A stretch of DNA of 37,511 nt, from positions 1-37,511 of the forward strand of contig JAEURH010000026.1 in the NCBI GenBank assembly GCA_016789365.1, in the 5' to 3' direction. This document shows, in pieces, positions 9,113-27,987 of this stretch (the first letter of the stretch is position 1; every line of letters begins with the position of its first letter). This stretch comes from Anaerolineales bacterium (lineage in GTDB: Bacteria > Chloroflexota > Anaerolineae > Anaerolineales > Villigracilaceae). The notes below the pieces were generated by a model. That model did no database searches and was not told the DNA's origin. It worked only from the letters and a program-made list of their open reading frames with translations. The position numbers and the translations under genes were made by a program.

Positions 9113-9190
9113 GTCTATTCTCCTTGTTTTGAAAAAGAACAAATTTTCTAATTATTATAGCACAAAACTTTACCTCAGACATTGAACATA

Positions 9191-11107: not shown

Positions 11108-11181
11108 TCACTCTTAGGTACTATTTTTCGTAACACAAACTGATTTTGATTGTTTCAACATGCAAAGTGAAAGGAGGAATG

Positions 11182-11907
11182 ATGAAACGCCGCGATTTGC
11201 TAATGTTACTTTTTTTAATTGCATTAACAGGATGCAATGTTGAAACACAACCGCCTCAACCCATAGCATCCCCTTTGGGGACGCTTGAAGTTGTTTCTAC
11301 ACCCCTGCCGACTTTTACCCCCATACCCACTTTCACCTTCACACCCACACCCGTTGTAATTTCTATGCAAGTGACTGCCGAATTGGTTAACTGCCGTTCT
11401 GGTCCTGGCACAATTTTTGACACACTCAGCCAAATTGCGCAAGGACGAAATTTGCGCGCTACAGGGCGAAATGAATCAATAACTTGGTATTATGTCAATG
11501 ACCCCGGCAACCCAGGCAAATTTTGCTGGGTTTCAGCAGACGTGGTTCAAGTCAGTGGCGAAGCGGATTTACTTCCAATTGTTCAACCACCCTTAGCAAT
11601 GGTCACCAATGTAGATTTACGAGTTGAGCCAAATCGCATTGTTGTAAACTGCAATCAATTTCCGCAAACTGTTTTCTTTGAAGCACTCGTCACCACCAAT
11701 GGACCGACCCTGTTTACATGGAAATGGGAAATCAGTACAGGTGCTGTTTCAGATGTGGGTACTTTGATTTTTGAAGAAGCTGGCACCAAAGCAATTAATG
11801 AATATTATCAAATCAATTCTGCTAATGATTATTGGGTGCGCTTTTATACACTCACACCAAATGAAGTAATGCGACAAGTAAATTTCCCCGTCAGTTGCAC
11901 GCCATAA
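11182..11907 (+). CDS. SH3-domain lipoprotein
   Basis: I choose the ATG at 11182 because AAGGAGG (11171-11177) lies four bases upstream; the ATG three bases earlier is too close. The 241-residue product has a lipoprotein signal (MKRRDLLMLLFLIALTGC, Cys18), a Pro/Thr-rich tether (about 25-58), and a bacterial SH3 domain (about 60-130, with NCRSGPG and WYYV...KFCWVSADVV). The C-terminal half (about 145-241) is beta-rich and has no recognised family. SH3 domains of this type bind peptidoglycan or peptides at the cell surface. It follows the histidine kinase by about 75 bases and could be its accessory sensor, but nothing proves this. Confidence 0.82.
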   Translation: MKRRDLLMLLFLIALTGCNVETQPPQPIASPLGTLEVVSTPLPTFTPIPTFTFTPTPVVISMQVTAELVNCRSGPGTIFDTLSQIAQGRNLRATGRNESITWYYVNDPGNPGKFCWVSADVVQVSGEADLLPIVQPPLAMVTNVDLRVEPNRIVVNCNQFPQTVFFEALVTTNGPTLFTWKWEISTGAVSDVGTLIFEEAGTKAINEYYQINSANDYWVRFYTLTPNEVMRQVNFPVSCTP

Positions 11908-11914
11908 AAATTTC

Positions 11915-12012
11915 CGTCATTGCGAGCCGCGCTCTTGATATTCGCGGCGAAGCAATCTCGTAATTAAGTTTGAGATTGCTTCGGGCGGGAGAACCTCACC
12001 CTCGCAATGACG
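11915..12012. repeat. GTCATTGCGAG-family inverted repeat, copy 2
   Basis: Twelve-base perfect ends CGTCATTGCGAG and CTCGCAATGACG enclose inner arms GAAGCAATCTC and GAGATTGCTTC, 98 bp in all. It fills the gap between two convergent stop codons and could act as a bidirectional terminator. Confidence 0.88.
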
Positions 12013-12020
12013 AATAATAA

Positions 12021-12692
12021 TTAATCATCCGGGAAAATCACCGTATTAAACCCAAGTGCCGCAAAGAACTTAATCAAATACGCTTCGGCATTGCGTTGGG
12101 CTTGAACCAAAATTCCATCTTCCAATGCCGCTTTCAAAATTTCTTGTTCGGCAGTTTGGCGCGCAAGCGTCTCTAAATCTTGCTGACCTTTCGTAAGCAA
12201 ACCAGTTTCACGGTCATACACATAAGATTTTTCATTATCTAACGTGGCGATGAAAATTTCAGCAGGCGGTAAATTGACATACAAAACATTTCCGTCATAA
12301 CGCATATCTTCTGGGCGAAGTTTTTCCATATCAATCCCAGCAATTACAATGCCATGCGCCACAAACAGCAATCTATCACCAAACGCAAAACCAAACGTAC
12401 CCTGACCAATTTCAGCCGTAATTACTTTTTCAACACTATATTGAATCGTTTCTAAACGTGCCAATGCTCGAATCTCATTGATATACGTGACCGGGTCCGG
12501 AATAATCGTTGGCGTAGGGTTCGCCAATTGCGCCACTTGTGTTTGCAATGCCTGATTCGCTTGATTCACTTGGTCAAATGGTCCTTGTGCCGCCGCGGCA
12601 GTTTCGCGCACCGTGTCTACGATAAAATAAACCCCAGCCGCCAACACTATCAAAATCAGGAAGGACATAATTGTGCTAAATGTATTTTTCAT
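12021..12692 (-). CDS. DUF4230 membrane-anchored protein
   Basis: The 223-residue product has one N-terminal helix (about 7-26, IMSFLILIVLAAGVYFIV) and a coiled-coil stalk with NQANQALQTQVAQL. A DUF4230 domain covers about 65-220: LARLETIQYSVEKVI, GDRLLFVAHGIVIAGIDM, the VYDRETGLLTKG block and the helical AEQEILKAALEDGIL tail. The domain is thought to face outward after the single anchor. Its function is not known. An AAAGGAT ribosome site precedes the ATG. Confidence 0.85.
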   Translation of the reverse strand: MKNTFSTIMSFLILIVLAAGVYFIVDTVRETAAAAQGPFDQVNQANQALQTQVAQLANPTPTIIPDPVTYINEIRALARLETIQYSVEKVITAEIGQGTFGFAFGDRLLFVAHGIVIAGIDMEKLRPEDMRYDGNVLYVNLPPAEIFIATLDNEKSYVYDRETGLLTKGQQDLETLARQTAEQEILKAALEDGILVQAQRNAEAYLIKFFAALGFNTVIFPDD

Positions 12693-12741
12693 TCGTATCC
12701 TTTCGATAACCTATTTTATTATATTATGATTACCCCATAAC

Positions 12742-13743
12742 ATGAAAAAAGTATTTCTTATTCTTTCACTTTTGTCATTTGGATGTTCTTTCCCGATACA
12801 AATTACTATCGGCGAACCGACTCCCACACCCGAACCGACTCTTGCTCCCACACCAACGCCTCAAATTAGGGGTGAGTTGGGTACTGAATCCAATCCTTTG
12901 ATTCTCACCCTAGCCCCTTCTTCCCGCCCAACAGATTCTGTTATCTCAGCAGGCGACGTGATTTCAGCATACATTCAATCACGCACAGGTTATCGCATTG
13001 TGACGGTGATTCCAGTTAGCGAAAATGCTTTGCTTGATTCGATTTCAAAAGGCAATGCACATATCGCATCATTATCACCTTATGGGTATGCAATTGCTTA
13101 TCAAAGAAGTGATGTCACGGCTTTGTTAGCCAGAGTGCGAGATGGTCAAATATTTTATGGCGCGCAAATCATTGCCAACCGTACAAAAAATTTCACACCT
13201 TATTTTGATGAAATTAAAAATGAAAATACAACAGATGTTGCTTCGGCATTAAAACAATTTCAAGAAAAGAAAGCATGTTGGAGTGATCCTGTATCACCGT
13301 CTGGGTATGTGATTCCGTTGGGGTTGTTGAAACAGGCTGGTGTCCAAATAAGAAGCGATGCATTTCTTGCCAATCAACCTAGCGTAGTCAGAGCCGTCTA
13401 TGCCGATGACATCTGTGATTTCGGTGCCACCTTTATTGATGCACGTACATCGCCCACGCTTGAAGCCGATTACCCCGATGTAATGGATAAGGTGAAAGTG
13501 ATTTGGCGAACCCCAAATATCATTCCGTATGAAAATATTGTTATGTCTACTGATTTGCCATTTGAAATGCGGCGTGTGATTCAACGTGCCTTTATTGATT
13601 TGATGCTCACACCTGAAGGAAAATCTGCGATGCAAACGGTGTATGGTTTTGATGAAACGCAAGTGATAGAAGATTCTGCATACACAGAATTTGTTACGCT
13701 CGCTACTGCTTCAGGTTTGGATTTGTTAAGTTTGATAGAATAA
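12742..13743 (+). CDS. PhnD-like phosphonate/phosphite-type substrate-binding lipoprotein
   Basis: The 333-residue product has a lipoprotein signal (MKKVFLILSLLSFGC, Cys15), a Pro/Thr tether, and a periplasmic-binding fold of the PhnD/SsuA type: SGDVISAYI-like N-terminal lobe, the SLSPYGYAIAYQRSD loop, and the hinge block CWSDPVSPSGYVIPLGLL. PhnD proteins bind phosphonates, phosphite or related anions for an ABC importer. No permease or ATPase gene is adjacent, so this is an orphan receptor whose ligand cannot be stated. A TATGAT lies 11 bases before the ATG without a Shine-Dalgarno sequence, suggesting a leaderless or near-leaderless transcript. The gene diverges from the DUF4230 gene. Confidence 0.85.
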   Translation: MKKVFLILSLLSFGCSFPIQITIGEPTPTPEPTLAPTPTPQIRGELGTESNPLILTLAPSSRPTDSVISAGDVISAYIQSRTGYRIVTVIPVSENALLDSISKGNAHIASLSPYGYAIAYQRSDVTALLARVRDGQIFYGAQIIANRTKNFTPYFDEIKNENTTDVASALKQFQEKKACWSDPVSPSGYVIPLGLLKQAGVQIRSDAFLANQPSVVRAVYADDICDFGATFIDARTSPTLEADYPDVMDKVKVIWRTPNIIPYENIVMSTDLPFEMRRVIQRAFIDLMLTPEGKSAMQTVYGFDETQVIEDSAYTEFVTLATASGLDLLSLIE

Positions 13744-13757
13744 TGAATTGCGGAAAA

Positions 13758-13810
13758 CGTCCCGCAGGTTTTAATTACAAATTAAATTGTATAACTAAAC
13801 CTGCGGGACG
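13758..13810. repeat. 53-bp CGTCCCGCAGGTTT inverted repeat, copy 1
   Basis: Perfect 14-base arms CGTCCCGCAGGTTT and AAACCTGCGGGACG enclose a 25-base AT-rich loop. The same arms and same total length recur at 18324-18376 and 25315-25367, while the loops differ. This copy lies between the PhnD-like gene and the SanA-like gene and may terminate the first. Confidence 0.9.
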
Positions 13811-13821
13811 GTACATGAAAA

Positions 13822-14469
13822 ATGTTAAAACGAATTATAAAATTTCTGTGGCAACTTTTTGTTACTATAACTTTTCTTACTGCTATCGCTTTGTTCACTC
13901 CAAAATTTTTATTTTGGATGTTTGCTCAACCTCGAACATACACGGTTGAAAATGTAGAATCAACGCGCGTAGCAATTGTTTTCGGTGCAGGTTTATTACG
14001 CGACGGCTCTGCTGGACCCGTATTAAGCGACCGTGTGCAAACGGCTGTGGCTTTGTATCAACAAGGCAAAGTGCAAAAATTGTTAATGAGTGGCGATAAT
14101 AGTTTTATCGAATACAACGAGCCAGAAGCCATGCGACAATATGCGCTAGAACGTGGGGTGCCAGATGAAGATATTGTTTTAGATTATGCAGGCAGAAGAA
14201 CGTATGATACTTGTTATCGTGCCAAGCATATCTTTCAAGTAGATGAAGCAATTTTGATTACGCAAGAATTTCACATGCCCCGCGCTTTGTTTCTTTGTAA
14301 TTGGTTTGGTATTGACTCAAATGGTGTTGAAGCAAATAATCGTTACTTCTTAAAACGCTCGCGCGCTTATTGGAATTTTCGAGAATTGTTTGCAACTTTC
14401 CAAGCCATGTGGGATGTGTTAATTACAAAACCATTGCCTGTGCTTGGTGAACCTGAGCCTATAAACTAA
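13822..14469 (+). CDS. SanA/YdcF/ElyC-family (DUF218) membrane protein
   Basis: The 215-residue product has one N-terminal membrane helix (about 8-30) and a DUF218 domain with the family's hallmarks: AIVFGAGLLRDGSAGPVLSDR, a VQKLLMSGDN strand-turn, YALERGVPDEDIVLDYAGRRTYDTCYRA, and ILITQEFHMPRALFLC. Members such as SanA and ElyC affect envelope barrier function and peptidoglycan or lipid-carrier metabolism, but their reaction is unknown. There is no good ribosome site before the ATG, which is only 11 bases after the 53-bp palindrome. Confidence 0.9.
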   Translation: MLKRIIKFLWQLFVTITFLTAIALFTPKFLFWMFAQPRTYTVENVESTRVAIVFGAGLLRDGSAGPVLSDRVQTAVALYQQGKVQKLLMSGDNSFIEYNEPEAMRQYALERGVPDEDIVLDYAGRRTYDTCYRAKHIFQVDEAILITQEFHMPRALFLCNWFGIDSNGVEANNRYFLKRSRAYWNFRELFATFQAMWDVLITKPLPVLGEPEPIN

Positions 14470-14470
14470 T

Positions 14471-14556
14471 ATGTCATTCTGAGCCGCGTTCTTGTTCTTT
14501 GCGGCGAAGAATCTCTTAAAACATTGTAGAGACCCTTCGCTACGCTTAGGGTGACA
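14471..14556. repeat. ATGTCATTCTGAG-family inverted repeat
   Basis: It starts ATGTCATTCTGAG, contains GGCGAAGAATCTC and GAGACCCTTCGCT, and ends AGGGTGACAT. It is clearly related in plan to the GTCATTGCGAG units at 7409 and 11915 but is a separate subfamily. It occupies the gap before the HD-domain gene. Confidence 0.75.
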
Positions 14557-14577
14557 TGGATAAAAATGGAGAAGATT

Positions 14578-15150
14578 ATGAATCGTGAAACTGCTTTAGC
14601 AATTGTGCGTGAATTTGTAAAAACAGAAAGTTTGGTACGTCACATGTTATCTGTTGAAGCCGCTATGCGTTTTTATGCTGAAAAATATAATGAAGATGTT
14701 GAAGCATGGGGATTAATTGGTTTATTGCATGACTTTGATTGGGAGATTCACCCCACACTTGAACAACATCCGCAAGCGGGTTCGGCAATCTTAAGAGAAA
14801 GAGGCGTGAGCGAAGAAATCATTCAAGATATTTTAAGCCATGCCGACCATACGGGTTTGCCGCGTGATACTTTGAGAAGAAAAGCAATTTGCGCGTGCGA
14901 TGAAGTGACAGGTTTAATCACAGCCGTTGCATTGGTGCGCCCATCAAAATCTTTATACGACCTTGAAGCAAGTTCTGTCAAAAAGAAATGGAAAGACAAA
15001 GCCTTTGCCGCAGGTACAAACCGCGAAGAAATGGAACACGCCGCCAAAGAATTTGGTGTGGAACTTTGGGAACATGTTGGTAATGTAATTCAAGCCATGC
15101 GAAAAATTGCACCTGAATTGGGGCTGGTAGGAAATATAAAGAATGCCTAA
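14578..15150 (+). CDS. HD-domain phosphohydrolase
   Basis: The start at 14578 is supported by GGAG seven bases upstream; an earlier in-frame start would begin inside the repeat. The 190-residue product has the HD metal-binding set: His22, His51-Asp52 (LLHDFDWE), His64 and His88/His91 (LSHADHTG). Small stand-alone HD proteins hydrolyse nucleotides or related phosphoesters, but the substrate here is unknown. The block GLPRDTLRRKAICACDEVTG is well conserved in HDIG-type proteins of Firmicutes and Chloroflexi, from general familiarity. Confidence 0.88.
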   Translation: MNRETALAIVREFVKTESLVRHMLSVEAAMRFYAEKYNEDVEAWGLIGLLHDFDWEIHPTLEQHPQAGSAILRERGVSEEIIQDILSHADHTGLPRDTLRRKAICACDEVTGLITAVALVRPSKSLYDLEASSVKKKWKDKAFAAGTNREEMEHAAKEFGVELWEHVGNVIQAMRKIAPELGLVGNIKNA

Positions 15151-15233
15151 AAGGGCAGGTTTTGAATCACTGCAAGGTTGCTAAATCTTGAAAATTCAAA
15201 GGCTTTAGCGATTTGTGTTTACTCTGTTTTTTA

Positions 15234-15372
15234 GGGAGTGTCTAATTTTATGGGCTTTTAAAACATTTAACCACAGAGCGCACAGAGAACACGGAGAAAA
15301 CTTTTGAAATATCTGTGAACTCAGTGTTCTCTGTGGTGAAAGGTTCTTTAGCCTTCTCTTTTAGACACTCCC
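15234..15372. repeat. Nested inverted repeat: GGGAGTGTCTAA arms around CCACAGAG copy 2
   Basis: Perfect 12-base outer arms (GGGAGTGTCTAA at 15234-15245 and TTAGACACTCCC at 15361-15372) bracket the second CCACAGAG unit (15270-15337). The outer arms do not occur around the other two CCACAGAG copies, so this looks like one element inside another. It accounts for most of the 273-base gap. Confidence 0.8.
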
Positions 15373-15410
15373 GTTTTTTATACCTATCTACTTGTTTACC
15401 TGTTTACCTT

Positions 15411-15416
15411 TATAAT
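15411..15416 (+). promoter_or_regulatory. -10 element (TATAAT), leaderless start
   Basis: A perfect TATAAT ends seven bases before the ATG at 15424 with no ribosome site between. A short direct repeat (TTGTTTACC, then TGTTTACC) lies just upstream in place of a clear -35. Confidence 0.6.
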
Positions 15417-15423
15417 TTCTAAT

Positions 15424-16374
15424 ATGATTCTCGTCACCGGCGCCACTGGATTTATCGGACGTGCGCTCATTCGTCAACTTTCTTCTATTGGATATCCACT
15501 CCGTGCATTGATTCGCCCTTCGCCTCGCACTCCTAAACTTCCAAAGGGTGTGCCAGTGGAAGTAGCAGTCGTATCCCTTGCAGATACTCGCGGTTTACGA
15601 GCCGCCATGCGAGATGTGGAAACCATTTTTCATTTTGCTAGTGCTGAAAATCAAGGCGCACGCGGAGATTTGCAAACCGCAGATATTCAAGGTACACAAA
15701 ATCTCGTAGAAGCGGCGGCAGATGCAGGCGTGGATAGAATCGTATATTTGAGTCATCTTGGCGCGGCAAGGGCATCGGCATATCCAGCTTTCAAAGCCAA
15801 AGGCATCGCCGAAGAAAGTATTCGCAACGGAAAAGTTCCTTACACCATTATTCGCACATCATTAGTTTATGGACCTGAAGACCATTTCACAACCAATTTA
15901 GCAAGTTTGATTCGTGCTTCGGTTGGCGTTTTTCCTATCCCATCTGGTAAGCGAACGGTTGTGCAACCCGTTTGGGTAGAAGATTTGGTGACTTGTTTAT
16001 TATGGGCAATTCAAAAAGAAGAGACCTTGAATCAAGTGTACGAAATTGGCGGCAATGAATTTTTTACCTTGCAAGAAATTATTCAAATTATTATGGATAC
16101 CACACGCAAAAGAAGATATTTACTTCCGCTTTCGCCAATTACCTTAAGAGGTCTCACGCTTTTTCTTGAAAGCGTAGTACCAAACTTTCCTATTTCATCT
16201 TTGTTTGTAGATTACTTTGCAGTGAATCGCACCACTGCCGTAGATTCCATGTCCAGATATTTTGGTCTGATGCCTGCGCGTTTTTCTTATCGGTTAGATT
16301 ACTTAATCAAAAAGCGTTGGTATCAACGGCTTTGGGATTCAATTAAAGAAAGAGTTAATGTAGGACGCAGATAA
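15424..16374 (+). CDS. NAD(P)-binding atypical/extended SDR (NDUFA9-like)
   Basis: The 316-residue product begins MILVTGATGFIGRALIRQL, with the GxxGxxG dinucleotide motif at residues 6-12. It also has LRALIRPS for cofactor ribose binding and a YPAFK block in the position of the YxxxK pair. The set of motifs resembles atypical SDRs of the NDUFA9/NmrA type, which often act on quinone-linked or isoprenoid substrates or only bind NAD(P). The substrate cannot be told. The final residues (VGRR) are encoded by the start of a short CGCAGATAAACGCTGA-type repeat that has apparently become the end of the gene. Confidence 0.88.
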   Translation: MILVTGATGFIGRALIRQLSSIGYPLRALIRPSPRTPKLPKGVPVEVAVVSLADTRGLRAAMRDVETIFHFASAENQGARGDLQTADIQGTQNLVEAAADAGVDRIVYLSHLGAARASAYPAFKAKGIAEESIRNGKVPYTIIRTSLVYGPEDHFTTNLASLIRASVGVFPIPSGKRTVVQPVWVEDLVTCLLWAIQKEETLNQVYEIGGNEFFTLQEIIQIIMDTTRKRRYLLPLSPITLRGLTLFLESVVPNFPISSLFVDYFAVNRTTAVDSMSRYFGLMPARFSYRLDYLIKKRWYQRLWDSIKERVNVGRR

Positions 16375-16413
16375 ACGCTGAGAACGCTGAAATTTTTAAC
16401 TTCACTAATAAAA

Positions 16414-17298
16414 ATGAAAAAAATAAATTACAACATTCGTTTACTTGATACCCCCGATGAATTGCGCCTCATTGAAGAATTGCAACGTGAGGTTTGGCAA
16501 GGTTCTGAAACTGATGTTGTGCCAATGCACATGCTAATCACCGCCGTTCATAATGGCGGCTTGGTTCTCGGCGCATTTGATGAAGAAAAAATTGTTGGCT
16601 TTGTGTTTGGTTTTCCCGGGCTCGAAGAATTACCCGATGGTCCGCGTGCCAAACATTGCTCACACATGATGGGCATTCATCCAAATTATCGTGATAGCGG
16701 CGTTGGCTTTGCACTCAAACGCGCGCAATGGCAAATGGTTCGGCATCAAGGTCTCGACCACATCACATGGACGTATGACCCATTGTTGAGTCGCAATGCT
16801 TATCTCAACATTGCTAAACTTGGCGCGGTTTGTACAACCTATCGTCAATCGGAATATGGCGAAATGCGCGATGGATTAAATGCAGGTTTGCCTTCTGATA
16901 GATTTCAAGTGGATTGGTGGATTAATACCCGCCGCGTTGAAAGAAGATTAGGCAAACGTTCACGTCCGACTTTGAAATTGAGTCATGTAGCTCGTAGCGG
17001 ATTACGTCCTTTTTATTCGCTTCAAACACTGACTGGAAACTTGGTCAAGCCACCTGAGCATTTACCTCCCTTCAACGATAGACTCTTACTTGCAGAAATC
17101 CCTGCTGACTTTATAGAATTAAAGTCTAAAGATTTTTCGTTAGCACGCGATTGGAGATTCTTTACAAGAGAATTATTTGAAACCGCTTTTGCAAAAAGTT
17201 ACATCATCACTGATTTTATTTATGATAATAATGATAATCATCCACGTGGGTTGTATGTATTAACTCACGGCGAAAGCACATTAGATGAGTTTGAATAA
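16414..17298 (+). CDS. COG3375-type GNAT acetyltransferase
   Basis: The 294-residue product has an N-terminal GNAT domain: RLIEELQREVWQG, GGLVLGAFDEEKIVGFVFGF, the acetyl-CoA loop HPNYRDSGVGFALKRAQW, and HITWTYDPLLSRNAYLNIAKLGAV. The pattern is that of the COG3375 acetyltransferase family, whose substrate is not established. The C-terminal third (about 200-294, with LLAEIPADF) is a family-specific extension. It follows the SDR by 39 bases with no good ribosome site, and may be read from the same transcript. Confidence 0.85.
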   Translation: MKKINYNIRLLDTPDELRLIEELQREVWQGSETDVVPMHMLITAVHNGGLVLGAFDEEKIVGFVFGFPGLEELPDGPRAKHCSHMMGIHPNYRDSGVGFALKRAQWQMVRHQGLDHITWTYDPLLSRNAYLNIAKLGAVCTTYRQSEYGEMRDGLNAGLPSDRFQVDWWINTRRVERRLGKRSRPTLKLSHVARSGLRPFYSLQTLTGNLVKPPEHLPPFNDRLLLAEIPADFIELKSKDFSLARDWRFFTRELFETAFAKSYIITDFIYDNNDNHPRGLYVLTHGESTLDEFE

Positions 17299-17299
17299 T

Positions 17300-17400
17300 G
17301 AGTCCCCTCTCCTTTTAGGACGTGTGCCACGAAGTGGTAGAGGGGTAGGGTGAGGTCAAATTAAACGCATGAGATGCCCTTGCGAGCATCTCAGCGGTTG
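17300..17400. repeat. Mosaic CCCTCTCC/AGAGGGGTAGGG-type repeat
   Basis: The gap after the acetyltransferase holds TCCCCTCTCC...AGAGGGGTAGGGTGAGG, related to the unit at 3585-3711, with a second small hairpin inside (GTGCCACGAAGTGGTA). A GAGATGCCCTTGCGAGCATCTC hairpin follows at about 17371. It appears to be a patchwork of two repeat types. Confidence 0.6.
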
Positions 17401-17421
17401 GATGGGGGAGAGGAAACGAAA

Positions 17422-17460
17422 CCTTGTGTACTTGTACCCATTTATGGGTATATGACAAGG
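17422..17460. terminator. Hairpin between convergent genes
   Basis: A two-step stem is visible: outer CCTTGT/ACAAGG and inner TACCCAT/ATGGGTA with a two-base loop. It lies directly before the stop of the minus-strand membrane protein, so it probably ends that transcript. There is no strong U-tract. Confidence 0.55.
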
Positions 17461-17461
17461 A

Positions 17462-18196
17462 CTACCTCCGAACGGAAGGGGTGTTGCTATGTTGATTACG
17501 GTCCATGGCGCTCATGCCGATAGGGTGATATGTCGGTTCAGGACGATTGACATAATTGCTCGGCATAGGGTTGGGTCGTGGCTTGGGGATAGGACGAGGA
17601 TAGTTTGTAGCAGGCAGGTTGGAGGTCCGAGGTTGAGGCGGAGTGTAGGTTGGTTCATTTCGATAAGTTGAATATCGTGTGTTTACATCTGCAAGAGTGA
17701 AGAGTCTATCTCCAGCGATTGAAAAAGTTCCAATCAATAACACGCGAATTAACCAAACCATGCTAGCAACAAAAATGGGGACTGCCTTTGTCATTGTTTC
17801 TTGACCAATAAGTGCGCCACCTTGAATGCTATGATTTTGAATGGCGACTGAAACGCCCCACCATGTGAGAATGGCGTTGAAGCCTGCGGCGAGTAACCAC
17901 GCACCAAAAAGATAATACACTTCGGCGGGTTCATCGCGCCCTTGTTCGGGTGTGAAGATGCGGGCAATGCCGGCAAAGTCAATTGCACAAAATGCAAAGG
18001 CAAGCACAGTTGCCCAACGGATGCCGGCAACTTGCAAATCGCCGAGAATGTCGCCAAGTGCAAATGAAGTGGCACCAAAGTTTGAAATTTCAAATGCAAT
18101 CAAGGCACATAAAAGAATGCCGCCAAAAATTACGCCGCGTTTGAGTGACGCATTTTTGAGGAATGATGTAAGTTGAAAGTTGATTTTGTGGTTCAT
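17462..18196 (-). CDS. Four-helix membrane protein with a proline-rich tail, behind an operator-bearing promoter
   Basis: The 244-residue product has four hydrophobic segments (about 20-40, 60-78, 92-113 and 137-160) and a cytosolic-looking C-terminal tail (about 172-244) rich in Pro, Asn, Thr and Tyr. AAGGAGA precedes the ATG. I recognise no family. Upstream is a textbook promoter overlapped by two GAAC-N4-GTTC-like boxes (18232-18274), so expression is likely to be tightly repressed and induced by some signal. If the boxes are LexA sites, the gene would be a DNA-damage-inducible membrane protein; if TetR-type, a stress- or ligand-inducible one. Both are inference. Confidence 0.75.
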   Translation of the reverse strand: MNHKINFQLTSFLKNASLKRGVIFGGILLCALIAFEISNFGATSFALGDILGDLQVAGIRWATVLAFAFCAIDFAGIARIFTPEQGRDEPAEVYYLFGAWLLAAGFNAILTWWGVSVAIQNHSIQGGALIGQETMTKAVPIFVASMVWLIRVLLIGTFSIAGDRLFTLADVNTRYSTYRNEPTYTPPQPRTSNLPATNYPRPIPKPRPNPMPSNYVNRPEPTYHPIGMSAMDRNQHSNTPSVRR

Positions 18197-18231
18197 GGAA
18201 AATCTCCTTTTGAGAACCTGCTAACAATAAA

Positions 18232-18263
18232 AAACAAGTGTTCTTAATATAGAACACTTGTTC
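18232..18263. promoter_or_regulatory. Tandem operator: GAAC-N4-GTTC box and a second box 20 bp away
   Basis: The first box (18252-18263) is GAACACTTGTTC, a match to GAAC-N4-GTTC. The second (18232-18243) is AAACAAGTGTTC, with one base off. The two centres are 20 bp apart, about two helical turns. One box fills the spacer between -35 and -10; the other lies over the expected transcription start. Together they also form a 12-base inverted repeat (AACAAGTGTTCT / AGAACACTTGTT). GAAC-N4-GTTC is the core of Bacillus-type LexA boxes, but TetR-family operators can look similar. Confidence 0.75.
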
Positions 18264-18274
18264 TAATTTGTCAA
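18246..18274 (-). promoter_or_regulatory. Consensus sigma-70-type promoter (TTGACA-17-TATATT)
   Basis: Reading the minus strand, TTGACA (18274-18269) and TATATT (18251-18246) are separated by exactly 17 bases. This is the strongest promoter match I found in the window and drives the four-helix membrane protein whose ATG lies 50 bases from the -10. The operator boxes overlap it. Confidence 0.8.
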
Positions 18275-18323
18275 GATGGATTCGTTGCAGGAAAATTGCG
18301 ATGATGTTTTCCCCTATGTAAAA

Positions 18324-18376
18324 CGTCCCGCAGGTTGGTTTGATTGATTGTGTTTAAGATTCAAACCTGCGGGACA
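18324..18376. repeat. 53-bp CGTCCCGCAGGTT inverted repeat, copy 2
   Basis: Arms GTCCCGCAGGTT (18325-18336) and AACCTGCGGGAC (18364-18375) match the copies at 13758 and 25315. The total length is again 53 bp, with a different loop. It lies between the YugP-type gene's stop and the four-helix gene's promoter. Confidence 0.88.
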
Positions 18377-18387
18377 GTGAAATTTAA

Positions 18388-19077
18388 TTAATCTCTGCTT
18401 CGTCCACTCACTAACGAAACATAATATAGCAATTGTAAAATCGCAGTGACTAAACCAGCAACGTAAGTGAGCGCGGCGGCATTTAACACGTTGCTTACGC
18501 CGCGCATTTCTTCGTCAGTTTGGATGATGCCGCTATTGGCTAACATTCTTTTCGCGCGGGCTGAAGCGTCAAATTCCACAGGCAAGGTTGCTAAAGCAAA
18601 CAATGCACCACCAGAAAATATAATCACGCCGAGCCATGCCAGACCTGTAAAGTTAAGTAATAAGCCAGCCAAAATTAAAATCCAGCCGAGGTTTGAACCG
18701 ATGTTTACCATCGGAACTAAAAATCCACGCAAACGCATGGGGAAATATTCTTCGGCATCTTGTTGGGCGTGACCAAGTTCATGCGCGGCGATTGCCAATG
18801 CCGCCACCGAAGGCACGTTTGCAACACCATTGGATAAATACACTGTGTTATCGCGTGGGTCGTAATGGTCGGTGAGGTCGCCAGGTGTGCCTTGAATTTT
18901 TAAGCCAGTTAATCCATTCATAGAAATTAATCGGCGAGTGGCATCAACACCTGTGAGACCACTGCTTGCGCGAATTTGACTCCATTTGTTATAAGCATGG
19001 CGTACATACCATGAGGTGATTCCCATGAGAATGAAAGCGGGAATCATGAAGATGAGGTAATTGATGTCAAAGAACAT
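18388..19077 (-). CDS. YugP-type membrane zinc metallopeptidase
   Basis: The 229-residue product has an N-terminal helix (about 5-24), the zinc-binding motif HELGH (His99-Glu100, His103) within LAIAAHELGHAQQ, and three further helices (about 120-140, 145-165 and 200-222). The pattern, including the NTVYLSNGVANVPSVAALAIAAHE block, is that of the YugP family (COG2738), predicted membrane metallopeptidases related in fold to M48. Substrate is unknown. AAGGAGA lies five bases before the ATG. Family length is usual. Confidence 0.92.
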   Translation of the reverse strand: MFFDINYLIFMIPAFILMGITSWYVRHAYNKWSQIRASSGLTGVDATRRLISMNGLTGLKIQGTPGDLTDHYDPRDNTVYLSNGVANVPSVAALAIAAHELGHAQQDAEEYFPMRLRGFLVPMVNIGSNLGWILILAGLLLNFTGLAWLGVIIFSGGALFALATLPVEFDASARAKRMLANSGIIQTDEEMRGVSNVLNAAALTYVAGLVTAILQLLYYVSLVSGRSRD

Positions 19078-19096
19078 GTTTATCTCCTTTTGATGG

Positions 19097-19149
19097 GTGC
19101 GTCGCGCCTAAAATTTTAGATACTCTTTAATTCTTGAAGCGCGACGCAC
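19097..19149. repeat. 53-bp GTGCGTCGCGC inverted repeat, copy 1
   Basis: Perfect 11-base arms GTGCGTCGCGC and GCGCGACGCAC enclose a 31-base AT-rich loop. A copy of equal length lies at 27170-27222 and a longer one at 36892-36977. This copy sits between the S41 protease stop and the YugP-type start. Confidence 0.9.
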
Positions 19150-19164
19150 TCTTGTAAAAGTCTA

Positions 19165-20424
19165 TTATTGACCAATCATTTCCAATAAAATTTCAACGGC
19201 TCTATCCAGTTGCGGGTCTAAACCTGCTTGTCTATCTTCTGGTGTCATTTCTACGGGGTAATCTGGTGTGAGACCAATTTGATGAATCGTATTTTCATTT
19301 GGTGTGAGCCATTTGGCAATCGTCACACGCACGGCGCCATTTTCACCGGAAAGAGGAATCCAATTTTGGACGGAGCCTTTTCCATACGAAACTGTGCCGA
19401 CTAATTTCGCACGACCCAAATCTTGCAAAGCACCCGCTACAATTTCAGAAGCAGAAGCGGAGCCTTCATTAATCAAAACCAACATGGGAATATTTGCGTC
19501 AGTGGCAAGCCCATTTGGTAAAGCGTTAAAGGTTTCGCGTGTTCCATCACCATATTGTTCATATAAAACTACACCTTCACTTACAAATTGAGATGTCACT
19601 TCAACAGATGTTTGTAAATACCCACCACCATTATTTCTCAAATCTAAAATAATGCCTTTGGGATTTTGCGCCATCAATTCATTCAGTGTGGCAAGCAATT
19701 CTGGCATAGTACGAGAACCAAATGTCGTTACTTGAACATACGCAATTCCATTATCAAGCATTTCACCAGTAGCGGCGGCAATGGTGATTTTCGCACGCAC
19801 AATCGTAAATTCAAGTGGAGCCTCAGCACCTTCACGAAGAATGGTCAATACAACCGTTGAACCAGCAGGACCTAACACTTTAAGGCGTGCCAGTTCTGCA
19901 TCTATGCCAGTCATATCTTCACCATCAATAGCAATCACTTGGTCGCCGGGCAATAAGCCTGCTTTTTCTGCCGGCGAACCGGGGATTGGGCTGGTAATTG
20001 TCAGGTATTTTGTGGTTGTATCCACATACGCACCAATGCCTTCATATTCACCTTCTAACCCGGCATTTGCGGCTTCAAAATCTTCTGGGTTCATGTAAGA
20101 TGAATGTTCATCACCTAAGGCTTCCATCATGCCTTTAATAGCACCACGCATTAATGCGACATCATCTACAGGTTGGTCAACATAATTTTCATGCACTAAG
20201 TTCCACGCTTCCCAAAACGGGGCGAAGAGAGCCTGCATTTCTTCCGGCGTTGCAGATTGTTGTTCAGGGGAAGTAGTCGGCGGCGTAATCGGTTCAATTT
20301 CTTCAACAGCGCCCGGTAGAGAAACAGGCACGAGATTTCCGGTCACAAACCCACCAGCAAACGAGCCGAGCATCAAAATTCCAATACCAAAAACGAGCAA
20401 AATTCCTTTTACAGTATTATTCAC
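19165..20424 (-). CDS. CtpA-type S41 C-terminal processing protease
   Basis: I place the start at the GTG at 20424, because GGAGG lies five bases upstream; a longer frame would need a TTG overlapping that site. The 419-residue product has an N-terminal signal anchor (about 5-32), a PDZ domain (about 125-215: GEYEGIGAYVD, AEKAGLLPGDQVIAIDG), and the S41 catalytic domain. The motif GSASASEIVAGAL carries the nucleophile (about Ser324) and YGKGSVQ the general-base Lys (about Lys349), in the Ser/Lys dyad of this family. Such proteases trim or degrade secreted proteins outside the membrane. Confidence 0.93.
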   Translation of the reverse strand: MNNTVKGILLVFGIGILMLGSFAGGFVTGNLVPVSLPGAVEEIEPITPPTTSPEQQSATPEEMQALFAPFWEAWNLVHENYVDQPVDDVALMRGAIKGMMEALGDEHSSYMNPEDFEAANAGLEGEYEGIGAYVDTTTKYLTITSPIPGSPAEKAGLLPGDQVIAIDGEDMTGIDAELARLKVLGPAGSTVVLTILREGAEAPLEFTIVRAKITIAAATGEMLDNGIAYVQVTTFGSRTMPELLATLNELMAQNPKGIILDLRNNGGGYLQTSVEVTSQFVSEGVVLYEQYGDGTRETFNALPNGLATDANIPMLVLINEGSASASEIVAGALQDLGRAKLVGTVSYGKGSVQNWIPLSGENGAVRVTIAKWLTPNENTIHQIGLTPDYPVEMTPEDRQAGLDPQLDRAVEILLEMIGQ

Positions 20425-20529
20425 AATAGCCTCCAATTTGGCTTAATATACGCACAAAGTTATCATTTGGTGATTAAAGATTGCTGAATATTGTATATGA
20501 TTATTATATGTAGGGCGAGGTGTTTTCTC

Positions 20530-21165
20530 CTACCCATTCTCTAAAACGCCTCTTAACTGACCCCAATCTGTGAGCTGAGCGTCGGCATCATCTTCGCTGA
20601 AAGTTTCGTTATACAAAATGCTGAACAAACCTTGTTCTTTTGCGGCACGCGTCGTGCGGTTGATGTCGTCAATCATCACGCATTTGCTTGAGTCAGTTTC
20701 ACCTGCGGCTTCCATAGCAATTTGAAAAGATTCAGGCATGGGTTTGCAATATGGCGCAATTGCGTTTACGTCAATTACTTTTTCAAATAAATCACGCAAG
20801 CCTAATGCTCTTAACACTCTATCAGCGTGGTTGGAGTCTGCATTTGTAAAAATCAGGTTGCGGGTCGGTAATGAAGCGATAACCTCGCGCAGAATCGGAT
20901 TCGGGGTTAGATAATCTTTCAATGGCAAATCATGCACAAAAGCAAGGAAATCTTCTGTATCAATGTTGTGATGCGCTTGCAAGCCGCGCAAGGTTGTACC
21001 GTATTTCAGAAAATATTTTTCGCGCAAGCTATCCACTTCGTTTTGCGGAATGTTCATGTGTTCTTGCATGTATAAACTGATGCGCGATTTTATGTTTTTC
21101 CACAAGCCTGCGCTGGGCGGGTAGAGCGTGTCGTCGAGGTCAAAGAAAATGGTTGTGAATTTCAT
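20530..21165 (-). CDS. HAD-family hydrolase, pyrimidine 5'-nucleotidase type
   Basis: The 211-residue product has HAD motif I FFDLDDTLYPP (nucleophile Asp9, Asp11), motif II IFTNADSNHADR, and motif IV VMIDDINRTTRAAKEQG. The cap block GTTLRGL near residues 55-61 is typical of the SDT1/pyrimidine 5'-nucleotidase group. It would dephosphorylate nucleotides or related small phosphates; specificity is not proven. It diverges from mutL with only 20 bases between the two ATGs and a shared palindromic -10 element. Confidence 0.9.
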   Translation of the reverse strand: MKFTTIFFDLDDTLYPPSAGLWKNIKSRISLYMQEHMNIPQNEVDSLREKYFLKYGTTLRGLQAHHNIDTEDFLAFVHDLPLKDYLTPNPILREVIASLPTRNLIFTNADSNHADRVLRALGLRDLFEKVIDVNAIAPYCKPMPESFQIAMEAAGETDSSKCVMIDDINRTTRAAKEQGLFSILYNETFSEDDADAQLTDWGQLRGVLENG

Positions 21166-21171
21166 TCGGGC

Positions 21172-21179
21172 ATTATAAT
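21172..21179. promoter_or_regulatory. Shared palindromic -10 element (ATTATAAT) for two divergent leaderless genes
   Basis: ATTATAAT is its own reverse complement and reads TATAAT on both strands. Its outer edges are six bases from the ATG of mutL on one side and about six from the ATG of the HAD gene on the other, with no ribosome site on either. No clear -35 is visible in either direction. Confidence 0.65.
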
Positions 21180-21185
21180 CGCGCT

Positions 21186-22940
21186 ATGCCAATTCGATTG
21201 TTATCAAATGAAGTTGCTTCTCAAATTGCCGCAGGTGAAGTGGTAGAACGCCCTGCCTCTGTTGTGAAAGAATTGATTGAAAACTCTTTAGACGCTGGTG
21301 CAAAAAATATTTCGGTTGCCATTGAAGATGCAGGCAAAGTTTTGATTGAAGTTGCCGATGATGGGCACGGCATTCCAGCGGATGAATTAGAGTTAGCAAC
21401 TTCGCGTCATGCCACCTCCAAACTGTTTCGCTCCGATGATTTGTTTTATATCAAGACGCTTGGTTTCCGCGGGGAAGCATTAGCCTCAATTGGTTCCGTT
21501 TCGCAAATGACAATGACTTCGCGCGTGGAATCATCAAAAGAAGCGGCGCGGATAAAAATTGAAGGCGGAATTACAGGCAAAATTGAAAAAGTCGGCGCAC
21601 CTGTTGGCACAGTTGTAAGAGTTGAACATCTTTTTTATAACGTGCCAGCGCGTTTGAAATTTTTGAAAACCGATGTGACTGAAAGACGCGCAATTGATTC
21701 ATTAGTGACACGTTATGCGCTCGCTTACCCAAATGTTAGGTTCAAAGTAACTGACGGAAAACAAGTCACATTACAAACCGCAGGTGATGGTGACAGACGT
21801 GCAATTCTCGCGGCTTTATATGGTGTGGATGTTGCTAAGCAAATGTTGGAAGTAATGACTGATGAAGAATCATTTAAGTTATCTGGCTTTATTAGCCCTA
21901 CTTCATTAACACGTTCTAATCGCAGAGAAATTACATTTTTTATCAATGGTCGTTGGGTACAGGATTCTGCGTTGAATGCGGCTTTGCTACAGGCATATCA
22001 TACATTGCTTATGGTCGGGCGTTATCCGCTGACAACTTTGTTTTTAGAAATTTCTCCAGAAGATGTAGACGTAAATGTTCATCCGACCAAAGCGGAAGTT
22101 CGTTTTAGAAGCCAAGATAAGATTTTTAGTTTTGTACAACGCTCTGTCAGAAAAGCATTATTGGCTTACACACCCGTGCCGACAGTATCGCCTCAATTAT
22201 GGGGTTCACGTTATGTGCCAACATCTGAGCCGAGAGAAGTGGGGATTGATTGGTCAATTGGACATGATGAAGCACTGACCACAGACGACAGACCGCAAAC
22301 CGACGAAAGCCATCAGCGGTCGGCGGTCAGCGGTCAAGAATCATTAAACACAAATGTTCCACTACTGCGTTTGATTGGTCAAATCGGCGCGACATATATT
22401 GTTGCCGAAGGACCCGACGGTTTATATCTCATAGACCAACACGCCGCGCATGAAAGAGTTTTATTTGAAAAACTCATGGCGCAACGTGAGAATAAAAATA
22501 TTCCATCGCAATCTTTATTATCTCCAGAAGTGATAACATTCCCACCACAATCTGCAAAAATATTAACAGAACAATTATCTGCATTAAATCATTTCGGGTT
22601 TGAAGTGGAAGAGTTTGGCACAAACACATTTCAAGTACGCGCTATGCCAGTTTTATTTTCAGGCGGCGACCCTGCTTCGGCATTAAAGTCTTTGGTCGAA
22701 GATTTTGAAGAGGACGAGAGTCCGCTCCAAACAGAGATTGAAGCGAAAATCGCGGGTAGAGTCTGTAAAAGGTTGGCAGTCAAAGCGGGGCAGGTGTTAA
22801 CCACCGAAGAACAACGCAGTTTGTTAAATGATTTAGAAGCGTGTCAAAATCCGCGCACTTGCCCGCATGGCAGACCCACCATGATTCATTTATCGGTAGA
22901 TATGTTGGAAAAACAATTTGGCAGAAAGGGCGCAAGGTAG
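21186..22940 (+). CDS. mutL: DNA mismatch repair protein MutL
   Basis: The 584-residue product has the GHKL ATPase N-terminus (GEVVERPASVVKELIENSLDAGA, about 17-39; GFRGEALASI near 95; the transducer domain to about 330), a short linker, and a dimerisation domain. DQHAAHERVLFE (from residue 417) fits the DQHA(X)2E(X)4E endonuclease motif, and CPHGRP lies near the end, so this is the nicking type of MutL found in bacteria without MutH. The linker (about 364-384) is encoded by a degenerate inverted repeat. The gene appears leaderless. mutS is not in the window. Confidence 0.96.
   Translation: MPIRLLSNEVASQIAAGEVVERPASVVKELIENSLDAGAKNISVAIEDAGKVLIEVADDGHGIPADELELATSRHATSKLFRSDDLFYIKTLGFRGEALASIGSVSQMTMTSRVESSKEAARIKIEGGITGKIEKVGAPVGTVVRVEHLFYNVPARLKFLKTDVTERRAIDSLVTRYALAYPNVRFKVTDGKQVTLQTAGDGDRRAILAALYGVDVAKQMLEVMTDEESFKLSGFISPTSLTRSNRREITFFINGRWVQDSALNAALLQAYHTLLMVGRYPLTTLFLEISPEDVDVNVHPTKAEVRFRSQDKIFSFVQRSVRKALLAYTPVPTVSPQLWGSRYVPTSEPREVGIDWSIGHDEALTTDDRPQTDESHQRSAVSGQESLNTNVPLLRLIGQIGATYIVAEGPDGLYLIDQHAAHERVLFEKLMAQRENKNIPSQSLLSPEVITFPPQSAKILTEQLSALNHFGFEVEEFGTNTFQVRAMPVLFSGGDPASALKSLVEDFEEDESPLQTEIEAKIAGRVCKRLAVKAGQVLTTEEQRSLLNDLEACQNPRTCPHGRPTMIHLSVDMLEKQFGRKGAR
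22276..22336. repeat. Degenerate inverted repeat within the mutL linker
   Basis: Arms of 24 bases (TGACCACAGACG... at 22276-22299 and TCAGCGGTCGGCGG... at 22313-22336) are inverted with 17 of 24 matches over a 13-base spacer. The right arm is built of GCGGTC repeats. It encodes about 20 residues of polar linker, TTDDRPQTDESHQRSAVSGQ. Confidence 0.7.
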
Positions 22941-23020
22941 CCTTATCAAATTGAAAGGTTTTTCTTTTTAGTTTTGTAAGGTTTTGGGATAAACATAAAT
23001 CTTTGCTCTACAATTAAATC

Positions 23021-23935
23021 ATGCAAAACATAGCGGCTGTCGTCACACAACCTGACCTCGAAAAAATATTTGAGCATCTTCATACCGCCGTCGCGGTCAT
23101 TGAAAAAGATGGCTCTTTTTTTGCTTGGAACCCAGCCTTTGAACCGTTCAAAAAAATAATGGGAAATTCATTTTCAAAAAAATTGACTGAAATGCACTGG
23201 CAAGAAATTTTTACTTTTGATGAAGATGATGTGAAGTTGTGTGAATGCTTTTTGATTCCCGCTTCAAACGCACGCTTCATCCTGCTTGCTGAACCTGTAA
23301 CCTCTGATTCCGCCTCAGCAGTTCAAATTCAAAAGTTACATAAACAAGTGAAATTATTTCAGGTGGAAAGTGAATTTTCAAAAAAATTAGCGCACAACAA
23401 ACATGTTGAACTAGAAAGTGTGATTACGCAAGCCAAAGAAGTTTCTCAAACAGATGCGTTAACTTTTATTTTTAATCGCCGCGCCATCATCAACGAACTG
23501 CAAAATGAAGTTTTACGCGCCGAACGCTATAACACCATGCTCTCTATTTCTATTATTGATGTTGACCATTTCAAATCTATCAACGACTCATTTGGTCACC
23601 CCATTGGAGATTCTATTTTGCAACAAGTGGCTCACCGCCTGCGCGATGGCATTCGTCATCCAGATGTAGTCGGCAGATATGGCGGCGAAGAGTTTTTGAT
23701 TATCTTACCGAGTTCAAATGTCCAAGCCGCTTCAGAGCAAGCAACTCGTTTGGGGAAAATGATGCGAGAATCCCCAATCATTGTCAAAGAACATGTCATT
23801 CAAGTGACGTTAAGCATTGGCACAGCACAATTAAAAATCGGCAAAGATACTTGGGAGACATTACTCAACCGCGCAGATAATGCCATGTACGAAGCCAAGA
23901 AAAAGGGCAGAGATTGTTTTGTGGTGGCGGAATAA
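23021..23935 (+). CDS. Diguanylate cyclase (PAS-like + GGDEF)
   Basis: The 304-residue product has a PAS-like N-terminal half (about 10-110: LHTAVAVIEKDGSFFAWNPAF), a linker helix, and a GGDEF domain (about 140-302). The active-site motif is GGEEF (221-225), and the inhibitory site RxxD (Arg212-Asp215) lies five residues before it. It should make cyclic di-GMP and be feedback-inhibited. TACAAT ends six bases before the ATG without a ribosome site, suggesting a leaderless transcript. There is no membrane segment, so it acts in the cytosol. Confidence 0.92.
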   Translation: MQNIAAVVTQPDLEKIFEHLHTAVAVIEKDGSFFAWNPAFEPFKKIMGNSFSKKLTEMHWQEIFTFDEDDVKLCECFLIPASNARFILLAEPVTSDSASAVQIQKLHKQVKLFQVESEFSKKLAHNKHVELESVITQAKEVSQTDALTFIFNRRAIINELQNEVLRAERYNTMLSISIIDVDHFKSINDSFGHPIGDSILQQVAHRLRDGIRHPDVVGRYGGEEFLIILPSSNVQAASEQATRLGKMMRESPIIVKEHVIQVTLSIGTAQLKIGKDTWETLLNRADNAMYEAKKKGRDCFVVAE

Positions 23936-23979
23936 AAAATCGGGAGAGGCTAACTTCAATAGTAAGGAAAAAAGAATTA

Positions 23980-24048
23980 ACCACTGAGAGCACAAAGACC
24001 ACAGAGTTTTTCTCTTATTTTCTCCGTGAACTCAGTGTTCTCTGTGGT
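23980..24048. repeat. CCACAGAG-family inverted repeat, copy 3
   Basis: It starts ACCACTGAG and ends CTCTGTGGT, 69 bp, with inner ACCACAGAG and GTGAACTCAGTGTT shared with the copy at 15270. It lies in the gap between convergent stops of the GGDEF gene and the DUF1501 gene. Confidence 0.8.
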
Positions 24049-24063
24049 AAAAGGCTTTTACCC

Positions 24064-25290
24064 TTATCGAAATATTCCCAAAGGATTATAACTGCCAGAA
24101 AAGCCGGGAAAAACCGCTTCAACATCATTATTGCCCATACGTTTTGACAATAATTCACTTAATATCTGACGATAATCGGTTGTCACTGCTAAATCGGCAT
24201 GGTCGTATAACTGGTCATTATTTAATCCAGGCCATGTCCCAAACACTTGACCGCCATTTACATTCCCACCTAATGTAAACATCACATTGCCATGACCATG
24301 GTCTGTGCCATAGGAATCATTTTGTACAAGCCTTCTTCCAAATTCACTGACGACGACAAGTGACAATCTGTCAGTGTAGCCTGAGTCGAGGTCGAGATAA
24401 AAATTCGCAAGTCCAGAAGCGAGGCTGTTTAACAAATCCGCCATGTAGCCACCGTTGCCATCATTTTGATATTCATGCGTATCCCAGCCGCCGAAATCCA
24501 CCGTAGCGACTCTTAACCCTGCTTCTAACTTAATCATCTGTGCTACTGTTTTTAATTGCCTGCCAAATTCATCATCATTATATTTTGCACCATTGGCTGG
24601 TTGATAGCCACCATCTGAAAGCGGGCTGACGATACTTAACGCATCTAATGTTCTTGCGCCTGCACGGTGCAAAATGCTGTCACCTTGATATAACTGTTTC
24701 AAAGCGTTGATGTGTGAATCACGCAAACCGTTATCCCACAATGAAAATTCTTCTGGCGTGCTCAGACTGACGGTTGGAACAAAGTTTAATAATGAAGTCG
24801 GCTGACCTGATGTAGATAAAGCAGGCAAAATAGATGAAATGCCAACTTTTTGTAAATGGCGCGTAATCCAACCTGAGGCAACACTTTTAGAACCAGGCGT
24901 ACCTAATTCGATATATTCTTGTGCATCAAAGTGACTACGAGTATCCACGTTCAAACCAACTGCATGAACCACACCTGCTTTGCCTTGTTGATATAAATCA
25001 TAAAGCGGTCTCATCGCAGGATGTAAACCAAATTGGTCACTCAATGGCAACAAATCTGAAATTTTTATATCGGGCCTTGCTTTTTCATAAAAGCCTCTGT
25101 CATCACCAGCAATCGGTGCAACAACATTTAATGCATCCCAGCCGCCGCGTAAAAATACAACCACCAATATATCGTAAGGGTTATCTTGCTTGGCAAAAGC
25201 AAGGTTGGTTAATCTTGCGCCGACCATTTCAGCAATAGCGGCAGAACAGCCTTGTAAAAATTGCCTGCGAGGGATAATTGTTTTTGGCAT
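24064..25290 (-). CDS. DUF1501 protein with a Tat signal
   Basis: I place the start at 25290, where AAAGGAAA precedes the ATG; a longer frame would run through the 53-bp palindrome. The 408-residue product begins MPKTIIPRRQFLQGC, a twin-arginine signal with possible lipobox. DUF1501 hallmarks follow: VVVFLRGGWDALNVV, the LHPAMRPLYDLYQQGKAGVVHAVG block, RSHFDAQEYIELGT, VDFGGWDTHEYQ, and VVSEFGRRLVQNDSYGTDHGHGNVM. The fold is alkaline-phosphatase-like (sulfatase superfamily), but no activity is established. It works in a pair with the DUF1800 gene immediately upstream. Confidence 0.92.
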   Translation of the reverse strand: MPKTIIPRRQFLQGCSAAIAEMVGARLTNLAFAKQDNPYDILVVVFLRGGWDALNVVAPIAGDDRGFYEKARPDIKISDLLPLSDQFGLHPAMRPLYDLYQQGKAGVVHAVGLNVDTRSHFDAQEYIELGTPGSKSVASGWITRHLQKVGISSILPALSTSGQPTSLLNFVPTVSLSTPEEFSLWDNGLRDSHINALKQLYQGDSILHRAGARTLDALSIVSPLSDGGYQPANGAKYNDDEFGRQLKTVAQMIKLEAGLRVATVDFGGWDTHEYQNDGNGGYMADLLNSLASGLANFYLDLDSGYTDRLSLVVVSEFGRRLVQNDSYGTDHGHGNVMFTLGGNVNGGQVFGTWPGLNNDQLYDHADLAVTTDYRQILSELLSKRMGNNDVEAVFPGFSGSYNPLGIFR

Positions 25291-25314
25291 AATAATTTTC
25301 CTTTTATAAAAGAC

Positions 25315-25367
25315 CGTCCCGCAGGTTTGGTTGACGAACATAATTATTTTCTAAAACCTGCGGGACG
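25315..25367. repeat. 53-bp CGTCCCGCAGGTTT inverted repeat, copy 3
   Basis: Perfect 14-base arms as in copy 1, 25-base loop, 53 bp in all. It lies between DUF1800 and DUF1501 inside what is probably one transcript and may tune the ratio of the two products. Confidence 0.9.
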
Positions 25368-25374
25368 TTTATAT

Positions 25375-27093: not shown

Positions 27094-27169
27094 AAAACCT
27101 CATGGTGATTATGCAACGAATTTTTTATTCCCACATCCTGCATAAGTACCAAAGAAATCTCAAATATGG

Positions 27170-27222
27170 GTGCGTCGCGCTTTGTGAACTAGAAAATCCT
27201 TATTAACGAGAGCGCGATGCAC
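27170..27222. repeat. 53-bp GTGCGTCGCGC inverted repeat, copy 2
   Basis: Arms GTGCGTCGCGC and GCGCGATGCAC (one mismatch) enclose a 31-base loop, giving exactly the length of the copy at 19097. It lies directly after the stop of lipB and could end its transcript. Confidence 0.88.
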
Positions 27223-27223
27223 T

Positions 27224-27928: not shown

Positions 27929-27940
27929 TTTTTACATATT

Positions 27941-27980: not shown

Positions 27981-27987
27981 AAGAGCA

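Follow-up and report, generated by a model that had tools for sequence, protein, structure and literature searches.

SOS regulons usually hold genes that are specific to one lineage, and the roles of these genes tend to be found late. SOS inhibitors of the YneA and SidA type block cell division and bind FtsW. LexA regulons with a GAAC-N4-GTTC box are known in Bacillus subtilis and other Gram-positive bacteria (PMC3323433), and YneA has one membrane helix (PMC13396833). A search of the open-access literature, mostly not of full text, returned no description of a LexA regulon of Chloroflexota, nor of the protein family considered here as an SOS target or of its hairpin. Wastewater plants commonly harbour members of this phylum, and bacteria of the kind studied here are mostly uncultured.

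Here, we analysed a 37,511-nucleotide stretch of DNA from an Anaerolineales bacterium (the whole stretch is called the window below), the genome of which is a draft (3.8 Mb, 398 contigs, 86% complete). From a single promoter, the analysis led to a predicted operator, part of a regulon, an unannotated conserved membrane protein family, and a conserved RNA hairpin. Overall, sequence comparisons are best explained, with good confidence, by a putative LexA-repressed SOS promoter driving a four-helix membrane protein.

Promoter architecture and predicted operators

An earlier note on this DNA had described a TTGACA-17-TATATT promoter, the best in the window, with two spaced GAAC-N4-GTTC boxes. A script check located the promoter on the minus strand (18274..18246), and a promoter scan of positions 9000-28500 found it to be the only promoter-like site in that range with 11/12 matches. 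Both boxes are also present, the first perfect and the second with one mismatch (Table 1). The 17-nt spacer reads AATTAGAACAAGTGTTC on the minus strand, and box 1 forms its end part. Box 2 covers the expected transcription start, at a centre-to-centre distance of 20 bp from box 1, and is followed downstream by AAGGAG and then by ATG. A perfect 12-bp inverted repeat (GTCCCGCAGGTT, window 18325-18375) was additionally observed between a zinc peptidase gene and the predicted SOS promoter.

Table 1. Positions of the promoter, gene, and hairpin features in the window
Feature	Position	Strand	Details
-35 hexamer TTGACA	18269..18274	-	Letters checked by script and promoter scan
-10 hexamer TATATT	18246..18251	-	17-nt spacer to -35; script check and promoter scan
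Box 1 GAACAAGTGTTC, predicted LexA operator in promoter spacer	18252..18263	-	Exact GAAC-N4-GTTC
Box 2 GAACACTTGTTT, probable second LexA operator	18232..18243	-	One mismatch
Ribosome-binding site AAGGAG	18204..18209	-	Letters by script; assignment by reading
Gene for 244-aa membrane protein (C188-type), predicted to have four helices and a disordered C-terminal tail	17462..18196	-	
Conserved four-helix core, residues 17-172	17681..18148	-	pLDDT 80.8, pTM 0.72
Pro-rich tail, residues 168-244, pLDDT < 50	17465..17695	-	Conserved EPTYHP motif near end
Covarying hairpin, GNRA loop, predicted 3' UTR	17364-17403	-	Between gene's stop (17462) and convergent neighbour

LexA control of the membrane gene is predicted with high confidence, and strong repression with induction is a plausible prediction from the geometry of the boxes. 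In an undamaged cell, a LexA dimer would sit on box 1, between -35 and -10, and block RNA polymerase; at the paralogue and in the window's genome, a further dimer could bind downstream, on the same face and two (or three) helical turns away. We infer that, upon DNA damage, RecA filaments would lead to self-cleavage of LexA and hence to expression of the membrane gene. As an integral protein of the membrane, the product would have four helices that carry a conserved polar network, as well as a disordered proline-rich tail, and its mRNA would end in the conserved hairpin.

Conservation of the predicted operator

The GAAC-N4-GTTC boxes do not exceed chance by number; their position and conservation do. 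Box counts were accordingly rejected as evidence, the numbers being not above chance: sites with at most one mismatch numbered 13 in the window (14.4 expected), and a genome-wide search for exact 8-base matches returned 21 sites, compared with 49 for the pattern read backwards. The form with inner A..T (GAACANNTGTTC) was the only one above its control (6 sites vs 1), with two of the six sites representing the lexA locus on overlapping contigs.

Promoters were read for 33 genus orthologues, 32 genus paralogues (C346-type, one of which was too short to read), and 25 order-level relatives. A spacer box with at most one mismatch was found in 33/33 orthologues, 31/31 readable paralogues, and 20/25 order-level relatives (the box lay elsewhere in L161, L171, L176, and L177, and L173 had none). 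Exact boxes anywhere within 220 bp were present in 33 orthologues, 28 paralogues, and 17 order-level relatives, and the control pattern was found in none of these promoter sets. Similarly, 80 named loci were compared (the best 80 out of 500 relatives, a selection that overlaps the genus set), of which 75 had an exact box within 200 bp upstream, compared with 0/80 for the control CTTG-N4-CAAG; four of the other five had a box with one mismatch, and the fifth (L248) had only 47 bp of upstream sequence. From a further set of 29 loci, which partly overlaps the other locus sets, 28 were located, 24 with an exact box and 28/28 with at most one mismatch. Alignment of 84 promoters showed that the half-sites, the -35 hexamer, and three letters of the -10 hexamer (T, A, and T) are nearly fixed, and that the flanks are variable. 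The earlier note had proposed boxes in front of orthologues as a test, and the spacer box was recovered from every genus orthologue (33/33); a predicted operator overlapping the promoter is conserved across the sets compared (31/31 and 20/25 for paralogues and order-level relatives; exact in 75/80 named loci).

In the 60 bp on either side of the spacer box, second boxes were mostly downstream (21 vs 2 upstream), with 20 of the 21 at 20-22 or 30-33 bp and one at 25 bp. Such spacing would correspond to two or three turns of the helix, the arrangement expected of a pair of dimers that share one face. A second box with at most one mismatch at 20 bp was found in only 2/33 genus orthologues, including the window, and two boxes are often present at the paralogue. 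The window's genome itself carries a second LexA-boxed paralogue (L015, G000:C346), with two boxes ~21 bp apart. It is conceivable that the two boxes act as a hairpin (a terminator or attenuator) rather than as operators, since together they can fold into a 14-pair stem with T's behind it, and a terminator scan listed them. We consider this highly improbable, given that box 1 is upstream of the expected start and that 31/33 genus orthologues are without box 2 (at most one mismatch), yet all 33 keep box 1 in the spacer.

LexA and other candidate regulon members

The reading of the boxes as LexA operators is consistent with the repressor encoded in the same genome. This LexA has DNA-binding (PF01726) and S24 peptidase (PF00717) domains, both over their cut-offs, and its best PDB relatives are solved LexA repressors. 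In an alignment, this LexA has an Ala-Gly pair as well as the regions around Ser and Lys that belong to the S24 fold. At lexA itself, an exact box occupies the spacer between a TTGAC-like hexamer and TAnnnT in 30/30 loci, including that of the window's genome (loci taken from 34 genomes with a match among 37). Farther afield, the box was exact within 250 bp at 14 of the 30 best-scoring lexA loci beyond the order, in a phylum-wide search. An exact box also lies shortly upstream of uvrB in the window's genome (on two contigs, one of which had its UvrB domain confirmed by Pfam) and in the relative G026. The earlier note had suggested an SOS regulon and asked for boxes at lexA, recA, and uvr genes, and the SOS reading is supported by lexA, by uvrB in two genomes, and by a LexA with both domains.

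The result for recA was mixed. No exact box was found within 400 bp upstream in 30 recA loci (taken from 36 genomes with a match among 37), and a one-base variant, GAAC-N4-GTGC, occupies the promoter spacer, the position of the exact box at lexA, in 23 of them (22 within 302 bp and one 664 bp upstream; matched control pattern, 0). Counting against LexA control of the membrane gene are the lack of genome-wide box enrichment, a recA without an exact box, and the 5/25 order-level relatives without a spacer box.

A TetR-family repressor, the main alternative in the earlier note, could bind the boxes in place of LexA. A TetR-family gene is preceded by GAACGTTCGTTC in the window's genome (L005, G000:C44), and another is preceded by the reverse complement, GAACGAACGTTC, in G026 (L305). 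This palindrome shares the GAAC-N4-GTTC core, but its inner bases (GTTC/GAAC) differ from the A..T of box 1 and lexA, and the membrane-gene operator is thus not identical in form to that of the TetR gene. The inner bases of the membrane-gene box are instead mostly A..T, a form common to lexA and, with one change, to recA. Moreover, no TetR gene was recognised among the listed open reading frames of the window (by reading, with part of them scanned). Binding by a TetR-family protein is therefore very unlikely.

Other boxed promoters were observed in the course of these searches. In the window's genome (G000), GAACTTATGTTC lies between TTGAC and TATAAT (L010, G000:C199, box at 1501) ahead of a gene for an FAD-binding/BBE oxidoreductase (Pfam), making this a further candidate SOS promoter. 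A near-identical promoter pair (L013 and L014, G000:C341) has GAAC-N4-GTTC behind a TTGACG-like hexamer, with the L014 promoter placed before a RibD_C-domain gene. The sequence of box 1, GAACAAGTGTTC, recurs at position 592 of L003 (G000:C72), directly ahead of a short ATPase-like open reading frame (AAA_22, below its cut-off). In G026, where contexts were read for 26 of 58 exact sites and many sites lie inside genes, a gene for an AlkZ-like DNA glycosylase has a box behind TTGACA.

The membrane protein family

The four-helix protein and proline-rich tail proposed in the earlier note agree with structure models. The full-length model (mean pLDDT 62.7) has four helices and a tail below 50, and the core was modelled separately with 52 sequences. 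In an alignment that includes three phage relatives, residues E36, N39, T43, D73, and R151 do not vary, and the tail motif EP(T/N)Y(H/E) is present in 32/32 paralogues and 12/25 order-level relatives. No match to the protein was found in Pfam (E up to 1), in NCBIfam, or in a sequence search of the PDB, and the sole match in PHROGs was weak (E 0.024). Fold searches of the PDB (E up to 0.001) gave no match with the full or the core model; a viral structure library gave a best match of E 1.5e-3, with the full model only.

Beside the membrane gene, a convergent acetyltransferase gene and an epimerase-like gene are kept in 57/80 named loci. An operon with the downstream gene was rejected, as the next gene is convergent. 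The neighbouring S41 and zinc peptidase genes, considered as checkpoint partners (by analogy with CtpA and YneA; PMC13396833), were likewise rejected, as they occurred close to the membrane gene in no more than 13 and 14, respectively, of the 80 named loci, some of which are short contigs.

The protein had matches in 56/61 relatives searched, and genomes of the window's genus mostly had two each. The closest named match (among the best 80 of 500) was from an Anaerolineales MAG, with 98% identity, and one relative in this set is named Candidatus Villigracilaceae. A draw of 400 Chloroflexota genomes recovered the family in 35 (31 from the same order or nearer, and four from the same class), and none of the 400 carried it outside the window's class. 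All 35 carriers had a LexA match, which says little because lexA was found in 381/400 genomes of the phylum.

Relatives of the protein are also encoded on four IMG/VR viral contigs (L311-L314; 39-52% identity over the matched part), two of which (L311 and L312) resemble each other and could represent a single virus. A holin gene adjoins the relative in L313, which ends shortly after its last helix; close to the relative in L312 is a protein that has an intein and matches terminase weakly (E 7e-5); and L314 encodes a ribonucleotide reductase, SSB, and a Mom-family gene. No GAAC-N4-GTTC was found in the fetched stretches of these contigs. The placing of the phage relatives in a tree was unsure, with long branches.

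As for function, our best guess, held tentatively, is a damage checkpoint effector at the membrane, acting on division or the envelope. We infer such a role because of the analogy with SOS membrane proteins (PMC13396833), the restriction of the family to one lineage, and the absence of an enzyme signature. The conservation of the helical core counts against a checkpoint or division-inhibitor role, as does the number of predicted helices, four compared with one in YneA. Known SOS division inhibitors are usually far less conserved than this core.

Next after the checkpoint guess is a pore-like role, in which the LexA-controlled protein would be a pore, a transporter, or a membrane-depolarising protein (toxin- or holin-like). 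The invariant E36, D73, and R151 lie within predicted helices and are kept in the three aligned phage relatives, and a holin gene adjoins one of the phage copies. A plain toxin, however, would be unsuitable for a family present in 56/61 relatives, often twice, and no known channel was matched in fold (no match in the PDB, E up to 0.001). We rate this role slightly below the checkpoint guess. Less probable still, in our estimation, is that the LexA-controlled protein aids in defence against phages, in the uptake of DNA, or in some other membrane task linked to damage. The relatives on four viral contigs would fit this role, as would the full model's weak resemblance in fold to phage proteins, which in some cases are annotated as DUF2637. 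Nevertheless, no DUF2637 match was obtained by sequence, in nine members scanned or in the genome, and the window protein had no match among plasmids (E up to 0.01) or phage records (E up to 10).

A conserved hairpin in the predicted 3' UTR

Past the stop codon, the sense strand of the membrane gene carries a 40-nt element of the form ATCCAACCGCT-stem-GNRA-stem-ATGCGTT. A regular expression for this hairpin matched 42/79 named loci (median of 37 nt after the stop; control 0/79), 0/32 paralogues (control 1/32), and 0/24 order-level relatives. A covariance model, built from the window and 32 of the 41 matched loci, detected it in the window and in 41/80 named loci with E below 1e-6, along with a few weak further matches, and did not confirm the regular-expression match in L260. 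The model found none in 70 other loci (including those of paralogues, order-level relatives, and phage, and part of the lexA and recA loci). One copy was present in each of five genomes with a looser pattern, and a stricter pattern gave 0 in three genomes. The hairpin stays beside the membrane gene in several loci where the acetyltransferase gene is 1-2.5 kb away.

Among 32 distinct rows, 99.4% of cells were paired and 7/15 pairs had changed on both sides. Shuffles scored as high in 0/500 cases for four of five measures, and the fifth, the number of pair types, was not exceptional (155/500 shuffles). Pairing is better in sense than in antisense (477/480 vs 448 cells), and GNRA loops occur in 27/32 rows in sense and in one in antisense; hence, it is the RNA of the gene's strand that is kept. 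The fold z of the hairpin in the window was -3.88. Neither the promoter region nor three hairpin loci had an Rfam match at the gathering score, and a search of 17250-17560 by E-value threshold gave one unrelated match, which is at chance level and lies outside the hairpin. The hairpin may stabilise the mRNA or give rise to a small RNA.

Through the LexA switch it would share with repair genes, and through the hairpin of its mRNA, the membrane protein is probably an undescribed part of the damage response. A bolder scenario, which we put forward as speculation, is that Anaerolineae have an SOS output of their own, in which a LexA-controlled four-helix family, usually with two copies in the window's genus, would halt division or remodel the envelope once DNA is damaged. 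The hairpin of one copy would be, or be released as, an SOS-induced RNA, and phages would have taken the protein without its LexA control for use on their hosts.

Comparison with known systems

Membrane proteins known from SOS responses offer one comparison. As for YneA, SosA, SidA, and ChiZ, the family described here is a membrane protein under damage control (predicted in this case) and is restricted to one lineage, although no homology to these four proteins was found. It differs from the YneA/SidA type in having four predicted helices with a polar network and a disordered tail, compared with a single helix, and from YneA in the absence of a LysM domain (Pfam, E up to 1). DUF2637 proteins of actinobacterial phages show a weak Foldseek likeness (E 8.1e-3, Gordonia phage Jace), but there is no sequence-profile match (PF10935), TM-scores are low, and the full-length model is of low confidence; a link to DUF2637 was rejected as a weak fold likeness not supported by sequence (nine members and the genome scanned). 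The IMG/VR phage relatives (L311-L314), by contrast, belong to the same family and differ in having no GAAC-N4-GTTC in the stretches fetched.

A further parallel lies with LexA regulons of the Bacillus type, which share the core motif, boxes at lexA, recA (as a variant), and uvrB, and a LexA with an S24 domain. The present case differs in its host phylum, Chloroflexota, in a box that is usually located in the promoter spacer, and in a recA box with one base changed, and it has among its predicted targets a family that the literature searched does not describe. While LexA control through GAAC-N4-GTTC is already known, the membrane protein family as a putative SOS target and its covarying hairpin appear to be new.
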